A stretch of DNA of 37,612 nucleotides from Candidatus Arcticimaribacter sp. (GTDB lineage: Bacteria > Bacteroidota > Bacteroidia > Flavobacteriales > Flavobacteriaceae). Under the pieces are notes generated by a model. It was not told where the DNA came from. It saw only the letters and a program-made list of their open reading frames with translations, and did not search any database. The stretch is from NCBI GenBank assembly GCA_003023645.1, contig PXYQ01000004.1:1-37612 (forward strand). The letters run 5' to 3'. Each line of letters opens with the position of its first letter. Positions within the stretch are counted from its first letter, which is position 1. Positions 22,338 through 31,998 of the stretch are shown one piece after another. A program made the translations under genes and the position numbers.

Positions 22338-23618
22338 ATGAAAATTATTTTTAAACTCCTTTTGGCTTCTTTTACAATCCTTACTAGCTGCACATCTGAT
22401 CCAATAGAACCTGTCCTTGTTTTAGTAGATGAACCCACCCCCACCCCAACCCCAACACCAATTCCAGACCCATTGGTGACGATTCCGCCTAGTGGATTAA
22501 TTCCCTGTGCTGATGGACAAGCTGGAGTTTACCCTTGTTTAGGGTATGATTTACAAGCTTTGGTTTCTCTAGAAACCATGGATGCTTCATCAGGAAACGA
22601 TAGTTGGGGATGGACCGACACCCAAACCGGAAAGGAATATGCGATTATGGGAGTGAACGACGGAACAGCTTTTGTAGATATCAGTACACCCGATCAACCC
22701 ATTTATTTAGGGAAACTACCTACCGCATCAGATCCAAGTTCTTGGAGGGATATCAAGGTGTACCAAAATTATGCTTTTGTTGTTAGTGAAGCAGCAGATC
22801 ATGGCTTACAGGTTTTTGATTTAACACGCTTGCGAGATGTAACCAGAGTTCAGCGCTTTACTGCTGATGCTCGTTTAAACAGCTTTGGGAATGCCCACAA
22901 TATTGCAATCAATGAAACCAGTGGTTTTGCCTATGTGATTGGGAGTAAGTTATTTGACGGCGGTCCTGCTTTTATTGATATAAACGATCCTTTAAATCCA
23001 ACCTTAGTTGGTGGTTTTTCAGATGAATCGTACTCACACGATGCACATGTAGTTACCTATGATGGACCAGATTTAGAGCATCAAGGCAAGGAAATTTACT
23101 TTGGAAGTAATAGTGATGGAGGAATGAATAATCAAGTTGTGATTGTCGATGTTACCGATAAAACTGCTCCAATACTAATTTCGAATATTACCTATAGCAA
23201 TGGTGGATATACCCATCAAGGGTGGTTGGCAGAAGATCATCAATACTATTATCTTGGAGATGAACTTGATGAAACTCGATTTGGAAACCGTTCCAAGACC
23301 TTTGTCTTTGACTTGGAAGATTTGGATAATCCTGTTCTGCACTACAACTATTTGGGAGCTACCAATGCAATTGATCACAATGGATATACTAAAGGCAATT
23401 CCTTTTTCTTAGCGAATTATACGGCCGGTATTCGCGAAATAGACATACAAAATATTGCTACAGGCGTAATGGAAGAAGTTGGTTTTTTTGATACCTACCC
23501 ATCAAATAATGGTGCAAACTTTAATGGTGTTTGGAGTGTTTACCCTTATTTTGAAAGTGGAGTAATTGTAATTAGTGATAGTAACTCCGGACTCTTTTTA
23601 GTTAAAGCAAGCGAATAA
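22338..23618 (+). CDS. Choice-of-anchor-B (LVIVD repeat) lipoprotein
   Basis: This 426-residue lipoprotein (lipobox LTSC, Cys18) has a Pro/Thr linker of four PT units (33-40) that spaces it from the membrane. The rest matches my memory of the choice-of-anchor-B family, with LVIVD-type blades such as TAFVDISTPDQPIYLGKL, LQVFDLTRLRDVTRV, PAFIDINDPLNPTLVGGF and VVIVDVTDKTAPILI. The SYSHDAHVVTYDGPD and HNGYTKGNSFFLANYTAGIREIDI segments add conserved His and Asp residues. A beta-propeller at the cell surface is likely; no enzymatic function is known to me. The next gene starts 4 bp after the stop, so they share a transcript. Confidence 0.88.
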   Translation: MKIIFKLLLASFTILTSCTSDPIEPVLVLVDEPTPTPTPTPIPDPLVTIPPSGLIPCADGQAGVYPCLGYDLQALVSLETMDASSGNDSWGWTDTQTGKEYAIMGVNDGTAFVDISTPDQPIYLGKLPTASDPSSWRDIKVYQNYAFVVSEAADHGLQVFDLTRLRDVTRVQRFTADARLNSFGNAHNIAINETSGFAYVIGSKLFDGGPAFIDINDPLNPTLVGGFSDESYSHDAHVVTYDGPDLEHQGKEIYFGSNSDGGMNNQVVIVDVTDKTAPILISNITYSNGGYTHQGWLAEDHQYYYLGDELDETRFGNRSKTFVFDLEDLDNPVLHYNYLGATNAIDHNGYTKGNSFFLANYTAGIREIDIQNIATGVMEEVGFFDTYPSNNGANFNGVWSVYPYFESGVIVISDSNSGLFLVKASE

Positions 23619-23622
23619 AACG

Positions 23623-24954
23623 ATGCGTAATTTTTTCATTTTCATACTATTTTGTTTTTGTGGCTGCGAAAGCGCAAGCTACCTTCCAGAAGATTTCTCT
23701 TCTTTTGAAGGAAAACTTTCTTGGGTAAAAACATTTGGAGGTTCAAACGAAGATATTGCTCATGCTGTCATTGAAACTGAAGATGGCGGTTTTGCTGTTT
23801 TTGGAAACACCAAAAGTGTTGATGGGGATGTCACAGATAAGACGATAGAAGAAAGTGATCTATGGCTTTTGAAGTTTAATGCAGAAGCCGAATTGGAGTG
23901 GACCAAAACCTATGGCGGTTCTGGAGATGATCGTGGTCATTCGTTGATTCAAATGAACGATGGTGGTTTTATGTTGTTGGGTTATAGCCAAAGCGCAGAT
24001 GGACTTGGCAGCAACAACGAAGGACAACACGACAACTGGGTTTTACGAGTAGATGCACAAGGAGCTTTTATGTGGGAACGGAGTTTTGGATACGGAGGGC
24101 ACGATCACGCATACAGTATTATAAAAACTGCTGATGGTGGTGCTTTATTCAATGGGTTCTTAGATGTAACAGCTTCAAATGGAGCTGGTAATTCTGTTGC
24201 AGACCGATCGGGGAGTCTTCATGGAGTGGGAGAGTTTTGGTGTCATAAAATCAATTCAGAAGGCGTAGTTGAATGGCGAAATTATTATGGTGGAACGAGT
24301 AACGATCGCTCCTATGATGCGACAGAATTAGCAAATGGCAACTTTGTTTTAGTCGGTACTTCAGAAAGTGTAGACGTAGACATTACAGACCCACAAGGGA
24401 GTTATGACGTTTGGGTTGTAACGATTGATGCAACTGGAAATTTACTTTGGGAAAAATCGTTAGGCGGGTCTGAAATCGATGGCGCCAATGCAGTTCTTCA
24501 AAACGCTGAAGGTAACATCGTAGTATTTGGAAATAGTTTCAGTTCCGATGGAGATAGAAGTTTCTCGAAAGGGAGTTCTGATTTTTGGATTGCAACCTTA
24601 AGTCCCTCTGGAGCGCTTTTGTCCGAAGACTCTTTTGGTGGCTCTTCTTTTGATTTAGGCCGCGGTCTAGCATCTGGATCAGACGGCGTTTTATGGCTTG
24701 CAGGATATTCTAGAAGTAACGATGGCGATGTGTCTTCGAATAAAGGAGATAATGATATGTTGATTTTGCGCCTGTCGCCAGACCATGTTGTACTGAACAG
24801 TCTTTCTTTAGGCGGTTCTGCGCTTGACCTAGCCCACGATGTTATTGAATTATCTTCAGGCAAAATTATCGTGATCGGCGAAACCGAAAGTACCGACGGA
24901 CCCTTTCAAGAGAACCGTGGGAACAAGGATATAGTGATTGCCCAATTCCATTAG
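23623..24954 (+). CDS. Repeat lipoprotein, predicted seven-bladed beta-propeller
   Basis: I do not recognise a named family for this 443-residue protein. It begins with a short hydrophobic signal and a plausible lipobox (FCGC, Cys15). The rest is seven tandem repeats of about 58 residues. Each is anchored by a W/L-x-K-S-x-GGS-x-x-D pattern at residues 39, 98, 156, 223, 281, 339 and 397, followed by DGG(F/A) and ending in S-x-DGDV and a D-x-W-hydrophobic strand. Seven repeats of this size predict a seven-bladed propeller. Asp/Asn-rich turns could bind Ca2+. It is cotranscribed with the choice-of-anchor-B lipoprotein, so the two may sit together on the outer membrane. Confidence 0.85.
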   Translation: MRNFFIFILFCFCGCESASYLPEDFSSFEGKLSWVKTFGGSNEDIAHAVIETEDGGFAVFGNTKSVDGDVTDKTIEESDLWLLKFNAEAELEWTKTYGGSGDDRGHSLIQMNDGGFMLLGYSQSADGLGSNNEGQHDNWVLRVDAQGAFMWERSFGYGGHDHAYSIIKTADGGALFNGFLDVTASNGAGNSVADRSGSLHGVGEFWCHKINSEGVVEWRNYYGGTSNDRSYDATELANGNFVLVGTSESVDVDITDPQGSYDVWVVTIDATGNLLWEKSLGGSEIDGANAVLQNAEGNIVVFGNSFSSDGDRSFSKGSSDFWIATLSPSGALLSEDSFGGSSFDLGRGLASGSDGVLWLAGYSRSNDGDVSSNKGDNDMLILRLSPDHVVLNSLSLGGSALDLAHDVIELSSGKIIVIGETESTDGPFQENRGNKDIVIAQFH

Positions 24955-25055: not shown

Positions 25056-25385
25056 ATGATTAAAGTCTCTGAAACTGCAAAACAAAAAGTATCTGTTTTA
25101 ATGCAAGAAGAAGGTTTCGATCCCATAAACGACTACGTTCGTGTAGGCGTAAAAAGTGGTGGTTGCTCTGGGCTTTCTTATGATTTGAATTTTGATAAAA
25201 AACAGCGTGATGAAGATCGTCTTTTCGAAGACAATAACGTCAAAATTGTTGTGGATAAAAAAAGCCTTTTGTATTTGCTGGGAACTACTCTCGAATACTC
25301 AGGCGGTTTAAATGGAAAAGGATTTGTATTCAATAATCCCAATGCAAATAGGACATGTGGATGTGGTGAGAGTTTTTCACTTTAA
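25056..25385 (+). CDS. sufA: A-type iron-sulfur carrier (SufA/IscA family)
   Basis: The 109-residue protein has the three conserved cysteines of A-type carriers: Cys37 in SGGCSGLSY and Cys101/Cys103 in the C-terminal TCGCGESF. It accepts a nascent Fe-S cluster from the SufBCD scaffold and delivers it to target proteins. It is the first gene of the suf operon, 12 bp before sufB. Function as SufA rather than IscA or ErpA is assigned by position. Confidence 0.93.
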   Translation: MIKVSETAKQKVSVLMQEEGFDPINDYVRVGVKSGGCSGLSYDLNFDKKQRDEDRLFEDNNVKIVVDKKSLLYLLGTTLEYSGGLNGKGFVFNNPNANRTCGCGESFSL

Positions 25386-25397
25386 AAGAAAAATGCG

Positions 25398-26843
25398 ATG
25401 GCATATACTGAAGAAGAATTAAAAAAAGAGTTAGAGACTAAAGAATACGAATACGGTTTTTATACAGACATCGATTCGGATACTTTTCCTATTGGATTAA
25501 ACGAAGATATCGTTCGTGCAATTTCAAAACGAAAAGAAGAACCCGAATGGATGACCGATTGGCGTTTAGATGCCTACCGTTCTTGGATAGAAATGAAGGA
25601 GCCAGACTGGCATAATGTAAAGTATAAAAAACCTGATTTTCAAGCCATTTCGTATTACTCAGCTCCAAGTAAAAAAGATAAATACGAAAGCTTAGATGAG
25701 GTTGATCCGGAATTACTGGACACCTTTAAAAAACTAGGGATTTCTTTAGACGAACAAAAAGTCCTTGCAGGAGTAGCAGTAGACATTGTTGTTGACTCCG
25801 TTTCTGTGGCAACAACCTTTCGTGATACGCTGGCCAAAAAAGGGATCATCTTTTGTTCAATTTCTGAAGCAATTAAAGAGCACCCGGATTTAGTCAGAAA
25901 ATATATTGGTTCCGTTATCCCTGTAAAAGACAACTTTTATGCAGCACTCAATTCAGCAGTTTTTTCTGATGGATCGTTTTGTTACATTCCCAAAGGTGTT
26001 CGATGCCCAATGGAATTATCAACGTACTTTAGAATCAATCAAGCCGGAACTGGCCAATTCGAAAGAACGCTAGTAATAGCAGACGAATCGAGTTATGTGA
26101 GTTACCTCGAAGGGTGTACAGCACCATCACGAGACGAAAATCAACTGCATGCAGCCGTAGTAGAATTAGTTGCTATGGATGAGGCTGAAATTAAATATTC
26201 AACCGTTCAAAACTGGTATCCAGGAAACAAAGAGGGTAAAGGTGGTGTATTCAACTTTGTAACCAAAAGAGGAATTTGCCATAACAGCGCTAAAATTTCT
26301 TGGACACAAGTAGAAACAGGTTCTGCTGTTACTTGGAAATATCCTTCCTGTATTTTAAAAGGAGATAATTCTATTGGAGAGTTTTACTCCATTGCAGTTA
26401 CCAATAACTTTCAGCAAGCCGATACGGGGACTAAAATGATCCACCTCGGAAAGAACACACGAAGTACGATCATCTCTAAAGGGATTTCTGCTGGACGCTC
26501 TCAAAACAGCTACCGTGGTTTAGTTCAAGTGCATCCGAATGCAACCAATGCTCGAAATTTTTCTCAATGTGATTCACTCCTTATGGGCGATCAATGTGGG
26601 GCGCATACCTTTCCTTATATCGAAGTTAAGAACAATTCAGCTCAAATAGAACACGAAGCCACAACGAGTAAAATTGGCGAAGACCAAATTTTCTATTGTA
26701 ACCAACGTGGAATTGATACAGAAAAAGCAATCGCACTTATTGTAAATGGATTTAGTAAAGAAGTTTTAAATAAACTTCCAATGGAGTTCGCCGTAGAGGC
26801 ACAAAAATTATTAGAAATTTCCCTCGAAGGTTCGGTGGGATAA
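25398..26843 (+). CDS. sufB: Fe-S cluster assembly scaffold SufB
   Basis: This 481-residue protein is full-length SufB, the scaffold subunit of SufBC2D on which Fe-S clusters form. The C-terminal beta-helix core carries SQCDSLLMG with Cys391 and [10 protein letters not shown] with Glu420. Their spacing of 29 residues equals that of the essential Cys405/Glu434 pair of E. coli SufB. The upstream segment with [20 protein letters not shown] is also diagnostic. It lies between sufA and sufC with short gaps. Confidence 0.97.
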
Positions 26844-26856
26844 GATTACATAAATT

Positions 26857-27606
26857 ATGTTAACAGTAAAAGATCTCCACGCAAGTGTAGAAGGAAAAGA
26901 AATTTTAAAAGGAATTAATCTTCAAGTAAATCCAGGAGAAGTTCATGCGATTATGGGTCCAAACGGATCAGGAAAAAGCACACTTGCTGCTGTAATTGCT
27001 GGAAACGAAGATTATGAAGTTAGTTCAGGCGAAATAACCCTCAACGGAGAAGAGTTGTCTGAAGCTGATGCGGAAGAACGCGCACACAAAGGAATCTTCC
27101 TTTCTTTTCAATATCCAATAGAAATTCCAGGTGTTACGGTTACCAATTTCATCAAAACTGCGATCAACGCAAATAGAAAAGCACAAGGTCTAGAGGATAT
27201 GCCTGCCAAAGACATGTTGAAGAACATTCGCGAAAAAGCAGCACTTCTAGAAATTGATTCTAAATTCTTATCACGTTCCCTAAACGAAGGTTTTTCGGGA
27301 GGAGAAAAGAAAAGAAATGAGATTTTTCAGATGGCAATGTTGGAGCCTAAATTGGCCATCTTAGATGAAACCGATTCTGGTTTGGATATCGATGCACTTA
27401 AGATTGTTGCCAATGGTGTTAACAAATTAAAAAGTAAAGACAATGCAGTGGTCGTGATTACACATTACCAACGCTTGTTAGATTATATCGTTCCCGATTT
27501 CGTTCACGTACTTTATAATGGTAAAATTGTAAAGTCAGGCACCAAAGAATTGGCGCACGAATTGGAAGCAAAAGGATATGATTGGATTAAACAACTAGTG
27601 GACTAA
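26857..27606 (+). CDS. sufC: Fe-S cluster assembly ATPase SufC
   Basis: The 249-residue ABC-type ATPase has Walker A GPNGSGKS (34-41), the signature FSGGEKKRNEI and Walker B LAILDETDSGLD. As in other SufC proteins, the signature carries EKKR rather than the LSGGQ of transporters. It drives conformational change in SufB-SufD during cluster assembly and is not a membrane transporter component. It is 13 bp after sufB and 2 bp before sufD. Confidence 0.97.
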   Translation: MLTVKDLHASVEGKEILKGINLQVNPGEVHAIMGPNGSGKSTLAAVIAGNEDYEVSSGEITLNGEELSEADAEERAHKGIFLSFQYPIEIPGVTVTNFIKTAINANRKAQGLEDMPAKDMLKNIREKAALLEIDSKFLSRSLNEGFSGGEKKRNEIFQMAMLEPKLAILDETDSGLDIDALKIVANGVNKLKSKDNAVVVITHYQRLLDYIVPDFVHVLYNGKIVKSGTKELAHELEAKGYDWIKQLVD

Positions 27607-27608
27607 CT

Positions 27609-28925
27609 ATGGATTTAAAAGAAAAATTAATATCCTCTTTTATGGCATTCGAAGAACAGTTGGATCTGTCTTCTACTGTCCATGAAATCCGCACGAATAG
27701 TTTGAAGCAATTCGAAGCATTAGGTTTCCCTACCAAAAAAGATGAGGCTTGGAAGTATACTTCCTTAGCAAAGCTGTTGAAAAACGATTACTCAATTTTC
27801 CCTAAAAAAGAAACAACAACAGAGCTCAAAGATGTAAAGAAGTATTTTTTATATGACATTGACACCTACAAGGTCGTTTTTATTGATGGAATTTACAGCC
27901 CGTTTTTATCGGACACTACCCACGACGGGATCGACGTTTGTTTGCTTTCTGCAGCGCTTACTAAAGATAAGTATAAAGGAACTATTGAAACCTATTTCAA
28001 TACCATAGCCAAAAAAGACGATAGCCTTACCGCATTGAATACTGCTTTCACTAAAGAAGGTGCTTATATCTACATTCCAAAATCGGTTGTTGCAGAAAAA
28101 CCCATACAAATCCTTCACTTTTCTACAAGTGAACAAGGGCCCATGCTATTACAGCCAAGAAACTTAATTGTAGCGGAAGAAAACGCACAAGTTCAGATTT
28201 TTGAGCGTCATCAGAGTTTAGTGCCGCATCAGGTATTGACGAACGCTGTGACCGAAATTTTTGCAGCTGAAAACGCAATAGTAGATTACTACAAAGTACA
28301 GAATGATTTAGATGAAGCCTCTCTTATTGACAACACCTATGTTGCTCAAAAAGGTAAAAGTCATGTAAGTGTGCATACATTCTCTTTTGGAGGACAACTG
28401 ATACGAAACAACTTGAACTTTTATCAAAAAGGAGAGTATATCGATTCTACCATGAAAGGGATCACCATCATTGGTGATAGACAACATGTAGATCATTACA
28501 CCCTAGTTGACCATGCGCAGCCTAACTGTGAAAGTCACCAAGATTATAAAGGTATTTATGCCGACAAATCGGTGGGTGTTTTTAATGGTAAAATCTATGT
28601 AAATCAGATTGCTCAGAAAACCAATGCCTTCCAAAAGAACAACAACATCTTGTTGGACAATACTGCAACCATCAATACCAAACCTCAGTTAGAGATTTTT
28701 GCTGATGATGTTAAATGTTCTCACGGTTGTACTATTGGACAGCTCGATGAAGATGCATTGTTTTATTTACGCTCAAGAGGAATACCCAAAAGAGAAGCTA
28801 AAGGATTACTTACTTACGCGTTTGCAAACAATGTTTTGGAAAGTGTAAAAATCCCTGCATTGAAACTACGAATTAACAAGCTGATTGCCGATAAATTGGG
28901 CGTTAGCATAGGACACGACTTATAA
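27609..28925 (+). CDS. sufD: Fe-S cluster assembly protein SufD
   Basis: The 438-residue SufB paralogue is recognised by KKDEAWKYTSL near the N-terminus, the beta-helix core, and DVKCSHGCTIGQLDEDALFYLRSRGI. Cys370 and His372 there match the Cys358/His360 pair implicated in cluster and iron handling in E. coli SufD. It forms the SufBC2D scaffold with its neighbours. The gene starts 2 bp after sufC and ends 3 bp before sufS. Confidence 0.96.
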   Translation: MDLKEKLISSFMAFEEQLDLSSTVHEIRTNSLKQFEALGFPTKKDEAWKYTSLAKLLKNDYSIFPKKETTTELKDVKKYFLYDIDTYKVVFIDGIYSPFLSDTTHDGIDVCLLSAALTKDKYKGTIETYFNTIAKKDDSLTALNTAFTKEGAYIYIPKSVVAEKPIQILHFSTSEQGPMLLQPRNLIVAEENAQVQIFERHQSLVPHQVLTNAVTEIFAAENAIVDYYKVQNDLDEASLIDNTYVAQKGKSHVSVHTFSFGGQLIRNNLNFYQKGEYIDSTMKGITIIGDRQHVDHYTLVDHAQPNCESHQDYKGIYADKSVGVFNGKIYVNQIAQKTNAFQKNNNILLDNTATINTKPQLEIFADDVKCSHGCTIGQLDEDALFYLRSRGIPKREAKGLLTYAFANNVLESVKIPALKLRINKLIADKLGVSIGHDL

Positions 28926-28928
28926 AGA

Positions 28929-30143
28929 ATGTTTGACGTAAACAACATACGAAAAGATTTCCCAATACTGGAGCGAACCGTAAATGGTCAGCCCCTGGTA
29001 TATTTTGATAATGCAGCAACTTCACAAACACCAAATCAGGTGATCGATGTAATTGCTGACTATTATCGGAATTACAATTCCAATATCCATCGTGGAGTTC
29101 ATACGCTAAGTCAAGAAGCTACGGACGCTTATGAAGGTGCAAGAAAAACGGTTCAAAACCATTTTAATGCAGCTCATCCTCACGAAATCATCATGACTTC
29201 TGGGACAACGCATAGCATCAATATCATTGCGTCGGGTTACACTCAAATCCTTCGAGAAGGAGATGAACTGATTCTTTCGGCCATGGAACATCACTCCAAC
29301 ATTGTGCCTTGGCAAATGTTGTGTGAACGTACTGGGGCTGTACTAAAAGTAATTCCCATGAACCAAACTGGTGTTTTGGAAATGGATGTTTATAAGACTT
29401 TACTTTCAGAAAAAACCAAACTGGTTTTTGTAAATCATGTTTCCAATGCTTTAGGAACTGTAAACCCTATAGATGAAATCATTAAAGAAGCCCATGCCAT
29501 TGGAGCAAAAGTACTCCTCGATGGCGCACAGGCTGCACCTCATATCAAGGCTGATGTACAGGCTTTAGATGTTGATTTTTATGTTACTTCTGCTCACAAA
29601 TTATGTGGACCAACTGGCGTTGGAATGTTGTACGGAAAAGAATCTTTATTGAATATGCTTCCTCCTTATCAGGGTGGAGGAGAAATGATCGCTGAGGTGC
29701 GTTTCGAAAAAACTACCTATGCCGATTTACCACATAAATTTGAAGCAGGAACTCCAAATATTGCTGGAGGAATTGCTTTCGGAGCTGCCCTTGATTATAT
29801 GAATGGGATTGGTTTTGACACCATTGCTGCTTACGAACATGAATTGTTGGACTATGCAACAGAACAACTGAAAGCGATTGAAGGAGTTCGTATTTACGGA
29901 GAAGCACCACAGAAAACTGCAGTAGTTTCGTTTAATGTAAATGAAATTCACCCCTACGATATTGGTAGTATTCTAGATAAATTGGGAATAGCCGTTCGTA
30001 CAGGGCATCATTGTGCACAACCCATTATGGATTTTTATAAAATCCCAGGAACTGTTCGCGCATCGTTTTCTTTTTATAATACCAAAGAAGAAATTGACAT
30101 GATGATTAAAGCACTGAAACGTGCAATTCAAATGTTGGAATAA
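28929..30143 (+). CDS. sufS: Cysteine desulfurase SufS
   Basis: The 404-residue PLP enzyme removes sulfur from L-cysteine as a persulfide. Lys224 in TSAHKLCGPTG is the PLP lysine, and Cys362 in RTGHHCAQP is the persulfide-forming residue. The short loop around this Cys places it in the group II (SufS) type, which depends on a sulfur acceptor such as SufE, encoded 21 bp downstream. Length is as expected. Confidence 0.97.
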   Translation: MFDVNNIRKDFPILERTVNGQPLVYFDNAATSQTPNQVIDVIADYYRNYNSNIHRGVHTLSQEATDAYEGARKTVQNHFNAAHPHEIIMTSGTTHSINIIASGYTQILREGDELILSAMEHHSNIVPWQMLCERTGAVLKVIPMNQTGVLEMDVYKTLLSEKTKLVFVNHVSNALGTVNPIDEIIKEAHAIGAKVLLDGAQAAPHIKADVQALDVDFYVTSAHKLCGPTGVGMLYGKESLLNMLPPYQGGGEMIAEVRFEKTTYADLPHKFEAGTPNIAGGIAFGAALDYMNGIGFDTIAAYEHELLDYATEQLKAIEGVRIYGEAPQKTAVVSFNVNEIHPYDIGSILDKLGIAVRTGHHCAQPIMDFYKIPGTVRASFSFYNTKEEIDMMIKALKRAIQMLE

Positions 30144-30164
30144 ATAGCATTACCTTAGCGAATT

Positions 30165-30587
30165 ATGAGCATACAAGAGATACAAGAAGAGATTATAGAA
30201 GAGTTTGCGATGTTCGAAGACTGGATGCAGCGATACGAATACATGATCGATTTAGGGAAAACACTTCCTTTGATTGCAGCCGAATTCAAAACCGATGACA
30301 ACATCATCAAAGGCTGTCAAAGTAAAGTTTGGGTTCACGCTGAACTCAAAGACAGTCAACTCGAATTTACAGCCGACAGTGATGCAATCATTACTAAAGG
30401 TATTATTGCTATTTTGATTCGGGTATTTTCGAATCAACACCCTAAAGATATCTTAGCTTCCGACACGAGTTTTATCGATCAAATCGGGCTTAAAGAACAT
30501 TTATCACCGACACGAGCCAATGGTTTGGTTTCGATGATTAAACAAATTAAAATGTACGCCATAGCGTTCCAAACACAACTTAGTTAA
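30165..30587 (+). CDS. sufE: SufE sulfur acceptor
   Basis: The 140-residue protein has Cys51 in DDNIIKGCQSKVWV, the residue that receives persulfide sulfur from SufS and passes it to SufB. The position is identical to that of E. coli SufE. The N-terminal helix with FAMFEDWMQRYEYMIDLGK is typical. It follows sufS and precedes the DUF59 gene by 2 bp. Confidence 0.96.
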   Translation: MSIQEIQEEIIEEFAMFEDWMQRYEYMIDLGKTLPLIAAEFKTDDNIIKGCQSKVWVHAELKDSQLEFTADSDAIITKGIIAILIRVFSNQHPKDILASDTSFIDQIGLKEHLSPTRANGLVSMIKQIKMYAIAFQTQLS

Positions 30588-30589
30588 TT

Positions 30590-30916
30590 ATGTCAGAAAA
30601 CACCTTAGATACCCAAGAGTTAGGAGAAAAAGTGGTCAATGTACTCAAAACTATTTTCGATCCTGAGATACCCGTTGATATTTACGAACTGGGACTGATA
30701 TACGACGTTTTTGTAAACGAAGATCGAGATGTTAAAATTTTAATGACCCTAACGACTCCAAATTGTCCAGTAGCAGAAACACTTCCAGTTGAGGTAGAAG
30801 AAAAAGTGAAATCGCTCGACGAAGTAAATGATGCCGAGGTTGAAATCACTTTTGATCCTCCATGGACTCAAGATTTAATGAGTGAAGAAGCCAAATTGGA
30901 ACTCGGATTTTTATAA
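30590..30916 (+). CDS. DUF59/MIP18 family Fe-S maturation protein (SufT-like)
   Basis: The 108-residue protein matches the DUF59 (MIP18) family: VVNVLKTIFDPEIPVDIYELGLIYDV near residues 16-41, then MTLTTPNCPVAETLP with a conserved Cys59, and ITFDPPWTQDLMSEEAKLELG at the C-terminus. Members such as SufT act in Fe-S protein maturation. Being locked between sufE and DUF2480 by gaps of 2 and 6 bp supports that role here. Confidence 0.92.
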   Translation: MSENTLDTQELGEKVVNVLKTIFDPEIPVDIYELGLIYDVFVNEDRDVKILMTLTTPNCPVAETLPVEVEEKVKSLDEVNDAEVEITFDPPWTQDLMSEEAKLELGFL

Positions 30917-30922
30917 AAAATC

Positions 30923-31426
30923 ATGGGAGATGAAATCGTAAATAAAGTCGCACAGAGTGTTCTGATTACCTTTGATCTAGAAGACCTCTATGTGCACGGA
31001 GTTCGGACCCAAATTGACTTGAGTCAATGGTTGGAACAAGGTTTTATTTTACGAGAAAAAGAATTTAGAGCAGTAATTACAACCCACGATTGGTCTATGT
31101 ACCAAGAACATTATGTCGCACTGTCTTGCTCAACAGATGCCATTCTTCCCGCCTGGGCAAGCCTTTTGATTACGGCTCAACTCAACCGTGTTGCAAATCA
31201 AATTGTTTGGGGTTCCCTTCAAGATCTAGAACATCAATTATTTCTTCAAGCTATTGATCAATTGGATTTAACTTCTTTCGAAGGTAAGCCCGTAATTGTA
31301 AAAGGTTGCTCTGAAAAAGAAATCCCTGAAAGCGCCTTTGTATACCTCATTCAAAAACTACAACCTGTAGTTAAAAGTCTTTTTTACGGAGAAGCTTGTT
31401 CCTCAGTTCCCCTTTATAAGAGGTAA
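30923..31426 (+). CDS. DUF2480 family protein, last gene of the suf operon
   Basis: I recognise this 167-residue protein as DUF2480, a Bacteroidota family with no established function. It is soluble with no signal peptide. Candidate ligand residues are His55-Asp56, His63, Cys69 (VALSCSTDAILPAWA), Cys129 (VKGCSEKEIPESA) and Cys159 near the C-terminal SSVPLYKR. The gene starts 6 bp after the DUF59 gene, so it is cotranscribed with the SUF system. A role in Fe-S assembly, cluster transfer or metal handling is a reasonable inference from context but is untested. Confidence 0.85.
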   Translation: MGDEIVNKVAQSVLITFDLEDLYVHGVRTQIDLSQWLEQGFILREKEFRAVITTHDWSMYQEHYVALSCSTDAILPAWASLLITAQLNRVANQIVWGSLQDLEHQLFLQAIDQLDLTSFEGKPVIVKGCSEKEIPESAFVYLIQKLQPVVKSLFYGEACSSVPLYKR

Positions 31427-31488: not shown

Positions 31489-31998
31489 ATGCGCTACGTA
31501 TTGCTATGTTTGTTTTTTGTTTTTTTGAGTTGTAAAAAAGACGTAAACCCTCCAGTTGTAGAAACATCGTTCAGTTTTATTGGAAGCTGGGATTATAGTC
31601 AAAAAATTTATCGTTTTGCAGATACACCTTTTATGCAAGTTAGTAATGGTTTAGAGTGTAATGGAGAAACGAATTTTACTTTCCGTACCGACGAATTTGA
31701 GATCACTATTGCCGAAGGAGTTGCTTGCGAAGAAAAATTCTTTTATGTTTTAGCTTACGATTTAATAAAACAAAATGACAGTACCCACGTGCTAACATCG
31801 GATCGATTAATTAGAACCAATTACAATCCAACTGAGCAGCCAAATTTTAGTGATATCCCTCTAATTGATAATGAAGTTGAATTGGTTATACGCTCCGAAA
31901 ATGAGTTCATTACCCATTTGAATTTACCCGATGAGCCTCTTTTTGAAGGTAGAACCTATGAGTCTTCCTATATTCGATATCAACGAATTCAAAACTAA
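31489..31998 (+). CDS. Small secreted lipoprotein, function unknown
   Basis: This 169-residue protein has a clear lipoprotein signal: MRYVLLCLFFVFLSC, with Cys15 as the lipidated residue. The mature part begins with a short KKDVNPP linker and contains GSWDYSQKIYRF, FTFRTDEFEITI and alternating strands ending YIRYQRIQN. This resembles lipocalin-like lipoproteins common in Bacteroidota, but I cannot name the family. It follows the suf operon by 62 bp, with inverted repeats between, and is probably transcribed separately. Confidence 0.8.
   Translation: MRYVLLCLFFVFLSCKKDVNPPVVETSFSFIGSWDYSQKIYRFADTPFMQVSNGLECNGETNFTFRTDEFEITIAEGVACEEKFFYVLAYDLIKQNDSTHVLTSDRLIRTNYNPTEQPNFSDIPLIDNEVELVIRSENEFITHLNLPDEPLFEGRTYESSYIRYQRIQN

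Follow-up and report, generated by a model that had tools for sequence, protein, structure and literature searches.

DUF2480, a likely accessory protein of Fe-S cluster biogenesis common to the SUF and ISC systems of Bacteroidota

DUF2480 (PF10652), encoded at the end of a suf operon in a 37,612-nucleotide stretch of a Candidatus Arcticimaribacter sp. genome (contig PXYQ01000004.1, positions 1 to 37,612; hereafter the window), is likely to be an undescribed accessory protein of Fe-S biogenesis serving a stage common to SUF and ISC, and not SUF alone, by way of a putative thiol carrier site. That it has a role in Fe-S biogenesis is, in our judgement, highly probable. The observations on which this is based are operon links with both systems, retention in genomes without SUF, occurrence in our sample only in genomes that have an A-type carrier, two invariant cysteines, and the presence of two related units within the protein. 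The inventory of Fe-S assembly factors, drawn mostly from a few model bacteria, is usually taken to be nearly complete. If our reading is correct, an assembly step has been overlooked throughout a phylum, as DUF2480 is found in 216 of 392 sampled genomes (strictly 215, since the match in G128 reaches 20.4 bits, below the cut-off, and no DUF2480 was found at its locus) and is kept where SUF is missing. We could not find any paper naming DUF2480, PF10652, pfam10652 or IPR018914 in a search of mainly open-access literature.

The six core suf genes of the window (A, B, C, D, S and E, identified from ORFs with Pfam and NCBIfam) lie on one strand (+) at 25056-30587 and are followed by two further genes:

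25056..25385, + strand: sufA, A-type carrier (PF01521 66.4 bits, TIGR00049 117.5 bits)
25398..26843, + strand: sufB (NF008773 914.6 bits, TIGR01980 635.7 bits)
26857..27606, + strand: sufC (TIGR01978 368.4 bits)
27609..28925, + strand: sufD (TIGR01981 280 bits)
28929..30143, + strand: sufS, cysteine desulfurase (TIGR01979 583.9 bits)
30165..30587, + strand: sufE, sulfur acceptor (PF02657 162.6 bits)
30590..30916, + strand: DUF59 / SUF_assoc protein of SufT type (TIGR02945 143.8 bits, cut-off 143.4; DPE-x28-T-x3-C59)
30923..31426, + strand: DUF2480, 167 aa, final gene of the run (PF10652 236.1 bits; Cys69, Cys129 and Cys159; residue conservation; internal duplication; AlphaFold2 mean pLDDT 86.1)
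31004..31222, + strand: unit 1 of DUF2480, residues 28-100, with REKxFR, DWxxY, Cys69 and PxWA (hhalign, unit 1 vs unit 2, P 3.4e-14)
31250..31423, + strand: unit 2 of DUF2480, residues 110-167, with KGC129, GEAC159S and VP (hhalign; K127, G128, C129, G156, E157, C159 and S160 in 155/155 alignment rows, 78 of them HMM-found)

ORFs, Pfam and NCBIfam thus agree with the original prediction of this DNA, which had described the core SUF genes followed by DUF59 and DUF2480 at gaps of 2 bp (from the end of sufE at 30587) and 6 bp, as also read in the ORF list and the DNA. The PF10652 match, far above its cut-off of 25 bits, covers residues 3-167 and profile positions 1-165 of 165, and is the only Pfam match of the protein at E up to 1. 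No Rfam element was found in the window at gathering score. Promoter and terminator scans of the window returned sites no more frequent than in shuffles, and the end of the operon is therefore not argued from them. Read by eye, ORFs with lipoprotein-like starts flank the operon on both sides (window 22338-24954 and 31489-31998); the ORF at 31489 has no match in Pfam at E up to 1.

The DUF59 protein is an ordinary, already known SUF-linked factor of SufT type. It passes the TIGR02945 cut-off, matches PF01883 with 67.1 bits, and its motif fits the SufT pattern DPE-X26-31-T-X2/3-C given in PMC9045647, where SufT is also described as contacting SufS and SufU. SufT acts in Fe-S protein maturation, and its gene has been repeatedly recruited to suf operons and repeatedly lost (PMC4982691). 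The earlier assignment of DUF59 to the SUF machinery is borne out, and was already known.

Linkage of DUF2480 with DUF59 and suf genes exceeds chance, as near relatives show. These were collected by searching a single genome of each species for the pattern [YF]GE[AP]CSxVP[LVI] (the best 80 of at least 588 confirmed, mostly titled Flavobacteriaceae or its genera). Among these best 80, DUF59 lies upstream of DUF2480 on the same strand in every case, SufE precedes DUF59 in 79 (the contig of the 80th starts at DUF59), and the gap between DUF59 and DUF2480 is at most 165 bp in 73; all six core suf genes plus DUF59 were seen in 58, a number of the others being cut by contig or locus ends. In five of the 80, a gene of 477-612 codons separates DUF59 from DUF2480. 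By eye, this inserted gene is HMG-CoA-synthase-like in L107 and L119, and ABC-transporter-like in L086, L108 and L114.

The position of DUF2480 in the suf operon of the window and of all these best 80 near relatives, together with a linkage to sufBCDS in three families outside the window's class (f22, f24 and f43; f-numbers denote families in our phylum sample of 392 genomes, G-numbers genomes and L-numbers loci), is what would be expected of a dedicated SUF subunit comparable to DUF59, as originally proposed. As a general rule, however, this is already contradicted by the genomes that have DUF2480 and no SufBD, all of which have IscU, by a one-unit form of the protein encoded in ISC operons, and by the loss of DUF59 along with SUF, while DUF2480 remains, in the genomes tested. 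We consider a dedicated SUF subunit quite unlikely, and the attribution of DUF2480 to the SUF machinery, as originally worded, did not find support.

The phylogenetic profile documents the first of these points. Counting by genome and ignoring kinship, with Fisher tests taken as descriptive only, an A-type carrier is present in 216 of 216 DUF2480 genomes vs 99 of the 176 others, and SufBD in 186 of 216 vs 106 of 176. DUF2480 is therefore not confined to SUF when profiled against suf genes: SufBD is absent from 30 of the 216 (four of the 30 were searched a second time), and a NifU_N/IscU match is present in 30/30 of these. In one class, 21 DUF2480 genomes of families f3, f4, f5 and f9 have IscU and are without SufBD and SUF-type DUF59 (G064, G072, G080, G091, G099, G115, G126, G138, G150, G158, G166, G178, G214, G261, G292, G349, G361, G364, G367, G378 and G388). 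SUF is present in further members of f3, f4 and f5, which suggests more than one loss of the system. The window's class has 100 DUF2480 genomes, each with an A-type carrier; its five DUF2480-less genomes, from two families (f11 and f12), have SUF but no A-type carrier, and the agreement between DUF2480 and A-type carriers across this class depends on these five. The 99 genomes that have an A-type carrier and no DUF2480 show that the A-type route can do without it. Aerobic life was rejected as an explanation of the DUF2480 pattern, its marker heme-copper oxidase (PF00115) being present in 376 of 392 genomes.

DUF59 behaves differently from DUF2480 where SUF is missing. Within the scope of this test (the window's order and class, plus nine genomes with the one-unit form), a SUF_assoc DUF59 of at least 120 bits is present in 28/28 SUF-bearing DUF2480 genomes of the window's order and class, which comprise all 25 of the class and 3/8 of the order, and it is above the strict TIGR02945 cut-off in 13/28. 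At the same level it is found in 0/30 SUF-less DUF2480 genomes (best 81.2 bits), 27 of which hold some weaker DUF59 match, mostly within longer proteins. Among the genomes tested, then, DUF59 tracks SUF, which DUF2480 fails to do. No DUF59 was seen in the suf runs of f22, f24 and f43.

To compare genomic contexts, we took the DNA around 91 places, 90 of which hold DUF2480. Outside the window's class, in the same phylum, 28 of 36 ortholog loci adjoin Fe-S genes, in differing arrangements: 16 have an A-type gene directly upstream and 12 have iscS. Fourteen of the 16 include sufB, C, D and S in the DNA taken, one has sufS near a contig end, and one has iscR and iscS. The order is sufB-C-D-S-Nfu-A-type-DUF2480 in f22, f24 and f43 (clustering places a further NifU_N-type gene in the suf runs of f22 and f43; Nfu is uncalled in L186, and L187, which starts at a contig end, shows sufS and the A-type gene only), and iscR-iscS-A-type-DUF2480 in f21. 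At the 12 iscS loci, iscS is the sole Fe-S gene found nearby; it is directly upstream in 11 (f14, 4/4; f30; f38, 2/2; f42; f44; f54; f36, 1/4) and four ORFs upstream in one (f40), and it overlaps DUF2480 or lies at most 15 bp from it in seven of the 12. Some neighbours and gaps will be wrong as a result of the simple longest-ORF rule used for gene calling around the loci (in G133, iscU was hidden by a longer ORF, yet matched by profile), and some flanks are short where contigs end. Most iscS, A-type and Nfu labels come from phmmer matches to a representative tested against Pfam and NCBIfam, part of the neighbours having been tested directly.

In four further families (f13, f16, f29 and f49), the DUF2480 match is a one-unit protein of about 90-120 residues, and iscS and an A-type gene are nearby in 7/7 loci, with DUF2480 ending the ISC run. 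The order is iscR-iscS-iscU-iscA-c9-DUF2480 in L219 (f29) and L220 (f16). L221 (f29) is an ISC run with one-unit DUF2480 in which iscR is uncalled, L222 (f29) has iscR, iscS, iscA and c9 with IscU matched between them, two f13 loci read iscS-iscA-c9-DUF2480, and in the f49 locus iscS and c9 share the stretch with matches to A-type and IscU proteins. The gene called c9 here encodes a protein of about 107-132 residues, located between iscA and one-unit DUF2480 in the ISC runs of these four families:

L219:8657-8983, c9
L220:8879-9199, c9 (also in L217, L218 and L221-L223)

Among the copies tested, those of L217 and L219 gave no match in Pfam and that of L220 a chance-level one only (E 0.1), and the L219 copy gave none in NCBIfam; c9 is possibly a further undescribed ISC-linked protein.

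The context with iscS as sole nearby Fe-S gene, at such short distances in seven of 12 loci, would also fit a partner of cysteine desulfurase, acting as a persulfide acceptor or activity regulator for general sulfur transfer, for example in tRNA thiolation, with Fe-S clusters served in passing; a tail that may be flexible after Cys159 (residues 160-167, modelled with low confidence) is in line with such a role. However, elsewhere DUF2480 follows A-type and Nfu genes and ends whole SUF and ISC runs, and the window's operon already has SufE. We regard such a general sulfur-transfer role as conceivable but doubtful.

Linkage is not universal. In nine other families of the window's order and class (f2-f10), suf or isc genes are near DUF2480 in 0/41 ortholog loci over the flanks taken, the neighbours tested being SurA/PPIase-, ScpB- and TsaD-family, rhomboid, DXP-synthase and other genes; outside the class, no Fe-S linkage was found in 8 of 36 loci (f26, f45, f52 and three of four in f36). 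The unlinked families could be understood if the association were an inherited gene order without functional meaning and DUF2480 an unrelated housekeeping protein. Against this, Fe-S associations recur in other orders of other classes (28/36, plus 7/7 for the one-unit form), and the tree places the linked groups apart. In a tree of 93 proteins (quick, midpoint-rooted, with SH-aLRT support only, every eighth near relative kept and one-unit forms left aside), which largely follows the sampled families, sequences linked to sufE-DUF59 form one group (support 84) nested in unlinked sequences of the class, and those linked to iscS and sufA fall in another (98), mixed with eight unlinked ones from outside the class. 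With gene orders that differ and groups nested in this way, DUF2480 is more likely to have been recruited to Fe-S operons separately than to have simply kept an inherited gene order, and a meaningless linkage appears highly unlikely. We also rejected an origin from mobile elements: DUF2480 gave no match in plasmid and phage collections, and the one-unit form none in plasmids. Together, the position of DUF2480 beside varied Fe-S genes and its retention where SUF is gone indicate that it is probably a general helper of Fe-S assembly and not a SUF-only part.

Comparison of the two forms suggests how the protein arose. The two units of the window's DUF2480 are related to each other (residues 28-100 vs 110-167, hhalign P as above), and the one-unit form aligns with the first part (1.5e-27) as well as with the second (5.1e-29). 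It combines REKxFR/DWxxY, PTWAY and both cysteine motifs; of these, the two-unit form has retained REKxFR/DWxxY in its first unit and the cysteine motifs in its second. Two-unit DUF2480 would accordingly have originated by duplication of a one-unit, two-cysteine ancestor of about 90 residues, with partial loss in each half; the opposite direction, an internal deletion giving the one-unit form, is less parsimonious. Cys69 and Cys129 do not occupy equivalent places in the two units, as hhalign sets them one residue apart.

Residue conservation was assessed in 78 HMM-found orthologs, which are the 90 loci minus L224 (cut by a contig end), four paralogs and seven one-unit forms; the paralog loci were also counted apart in all linkage counts. 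These 78 represent 25 families, with two from the window's own, and come mainly from better-scoring listed matches among the 216 genomes (f19, f32, f51 and f56, for instance, have DUF2480 but no loci in the set; DUF2480 of G049 looked truncated, the gene running to a contig end). The 155 alignment rows also include 76 near relatives (L094, L102, L121 and L136 of the 80 having been omitted from alignment A3), in which Cys159 is conserved by selection, since the search pattern includes it; only the 78 HMM-found rows therefore count as evidence. The 78 show no substitution at Cys129, Cys159, Lys127, Gly128, Gly156, Glu157, Ser160, Val162, Pro163, Asp32, Glu45, Arg49 or Trp78; Cys69 persists in 74 and is lost in four, and exactly three cysteines are present in 59. 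Each of the seven one-unit forms has just two cysteines counted from the start of its conserved core, those matching Cys129 and Cys159, and three of the seven carry Ala at the Ser160 position. The motifs of three cysteines and two histidines first proposed as a metal or cluster site stand in part. Cys69, Cys129 and Cys159 are indeed the only cysteines of the window's protein and are well conserved, but there are four histidines (25, 55, 63 and 104), and the two named, His55 and His63, occur in 47 and 3 of the 78 orthologs, so that a metal site using them was dropped. The original prediction had named frequent separation from suf genes, with Cys/His residues not conserved, as evidence against its reading; we found the separation (in f2-f10) and the variable histidines, but conserved cysteines.

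An AlphaFold2 model of DUF2480 built from 77 sequences has an alpha/beta fold in which the three cysteines follow predicted strands 64-68, 123-127 and 152-155, an order of strands by which they may come together in space. No clear fold match was obtained for this model. Foldseek returned 873 matches at E <= 10 and none at E <= 0.001 (best E 5.1e-3, probability 0.38), VIA-align gave Z >= 2 for 81 of 999 chains and Z >= 5 for none (at most 4.0), and no solved structure is related to the protein by sequence at E up to 1.

We propose that Cys129 and Cys159, both of which immediately follow a predicted beta strand, make up one thiol site, usually in the company of Cys69. The site may bind iron, a persulfide or a labile Fe-S cluster and would pass it on between the cysteine desulfurase or scaffold on one side and the A-type carrier or apo-target on the other. 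DUF2480 probably acts with cysteine desulfurase and the A-type carrier. The A-type profile and the A-type and Nfu neighbours favour the downstream side, and the iscS-only neighbours favour the sulfur side; the chemistry of a downstream carrier is put forward tentatively, as a possibility somewhat short of even.

A second full-length copy, scoring about 150-158 bits, was found in four of 18 genomes searched, the 18 having been picked partly for two DUF2480 matches in the sample search. The gene groups of these paralogs are:

L216:8190-10760
L140:8065-10587
L195:7366-10302
L215:8315-9835

The paralogs keep the first cysteine and have lost Cys129 and Cys159. In 4/4 loci they adjoin a regulator that comes closest to SufR in NCBIfam, with 110-114 bits against a cut-off of 178.8, and that, read by eye, has the conserved cysteines CPIC, CQGFC and RC; three of the four loci also have superoxide dismutase and FMN reductase (by Pfam for one dismutase and two reductases, the remainder by clustering). 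No suf or isc gene was seen in the flanks taken around the four. The group may be an Fe-S-regulated stress operon. It is also what suggests that DUF2480 might repair oxidised Fe-S clusters, or protect them under stress, and not take part in their biogenesis. However, these paralogs are without Cys129 and Cys159, and no such neighbours were seen beside annotated orthologs; we regard a repair function as unlikely.

Our most specific proposal, which we hold to be rather probable, is that DUF2480 founds a new family of Fe-S factors with no recognised relative, working with SUF and ISC at the desulfurase/A-type step. It would have arisen by duplication and fusion of a two-cysteine protein of about 90 residues whose one-unit form ends ISC operons in other classes, with labour divided between unit 1 (REKxFR/DWxxY) and unit 2 (the two-cysteine site). 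The earlier claim of an undescribed Fe-S component gains support from several different operon associations and two invariant cysteines. Standing against are the unlinked loci (all 41 in the nine families and 8 of 36 outside the class) and the lack of a CxxC motif, of a match to an Fe-S family and of a clear fold match. If the paralogs have a function, they exercise it with neither invariant cysteine. The conserved cysteine pair and the one-unit homologue offer simple mutants and a simpler starting protein, and a tractable Flavobacterium allows a direct test.

Among known systems, DUF2480 resembles SufE, SufU and IscU in having a conserved cysteine and lying near cysteine desulfurase genes, but has no PF02657 or PF01592 match; being co-encoded with SufE or IscU, it is therefore not a plain substitute for them. 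It differs from Nfu/NifU by the absence of CxxC and of a PF01106 match. With IscX, frataxin/CyaY and further accessory proteins of ISC it shares only the position of a small accessory gene ending an ISC run; those proteins have an acidic patch where DUF2480 has conserved cysteines, and DUF2480 matches no other Pfam family. Like SufT/DUF59, as described in PMC4982691, it is a small protein with conserved cysteine encoded in suf operons of some lineages and elsewhere in others, but it has no DUF59 sequence match, its conserved cysteines number two or three, and it persists where SUF is missing, unlike the DUF59 tested. It differs from the A-type carriers (SufA/IscA/ErpA, PF01521) in having no PF01521 match (E up to 1), in its motifs KGC and GEACS, and in an alpha/beta model with two related units. 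It shares with them conserved cysteines, lies near their genes in f13, f16, f21, f22, f24, f29, f43 and f49, and occurs, in our sample, only in genomes that have them.
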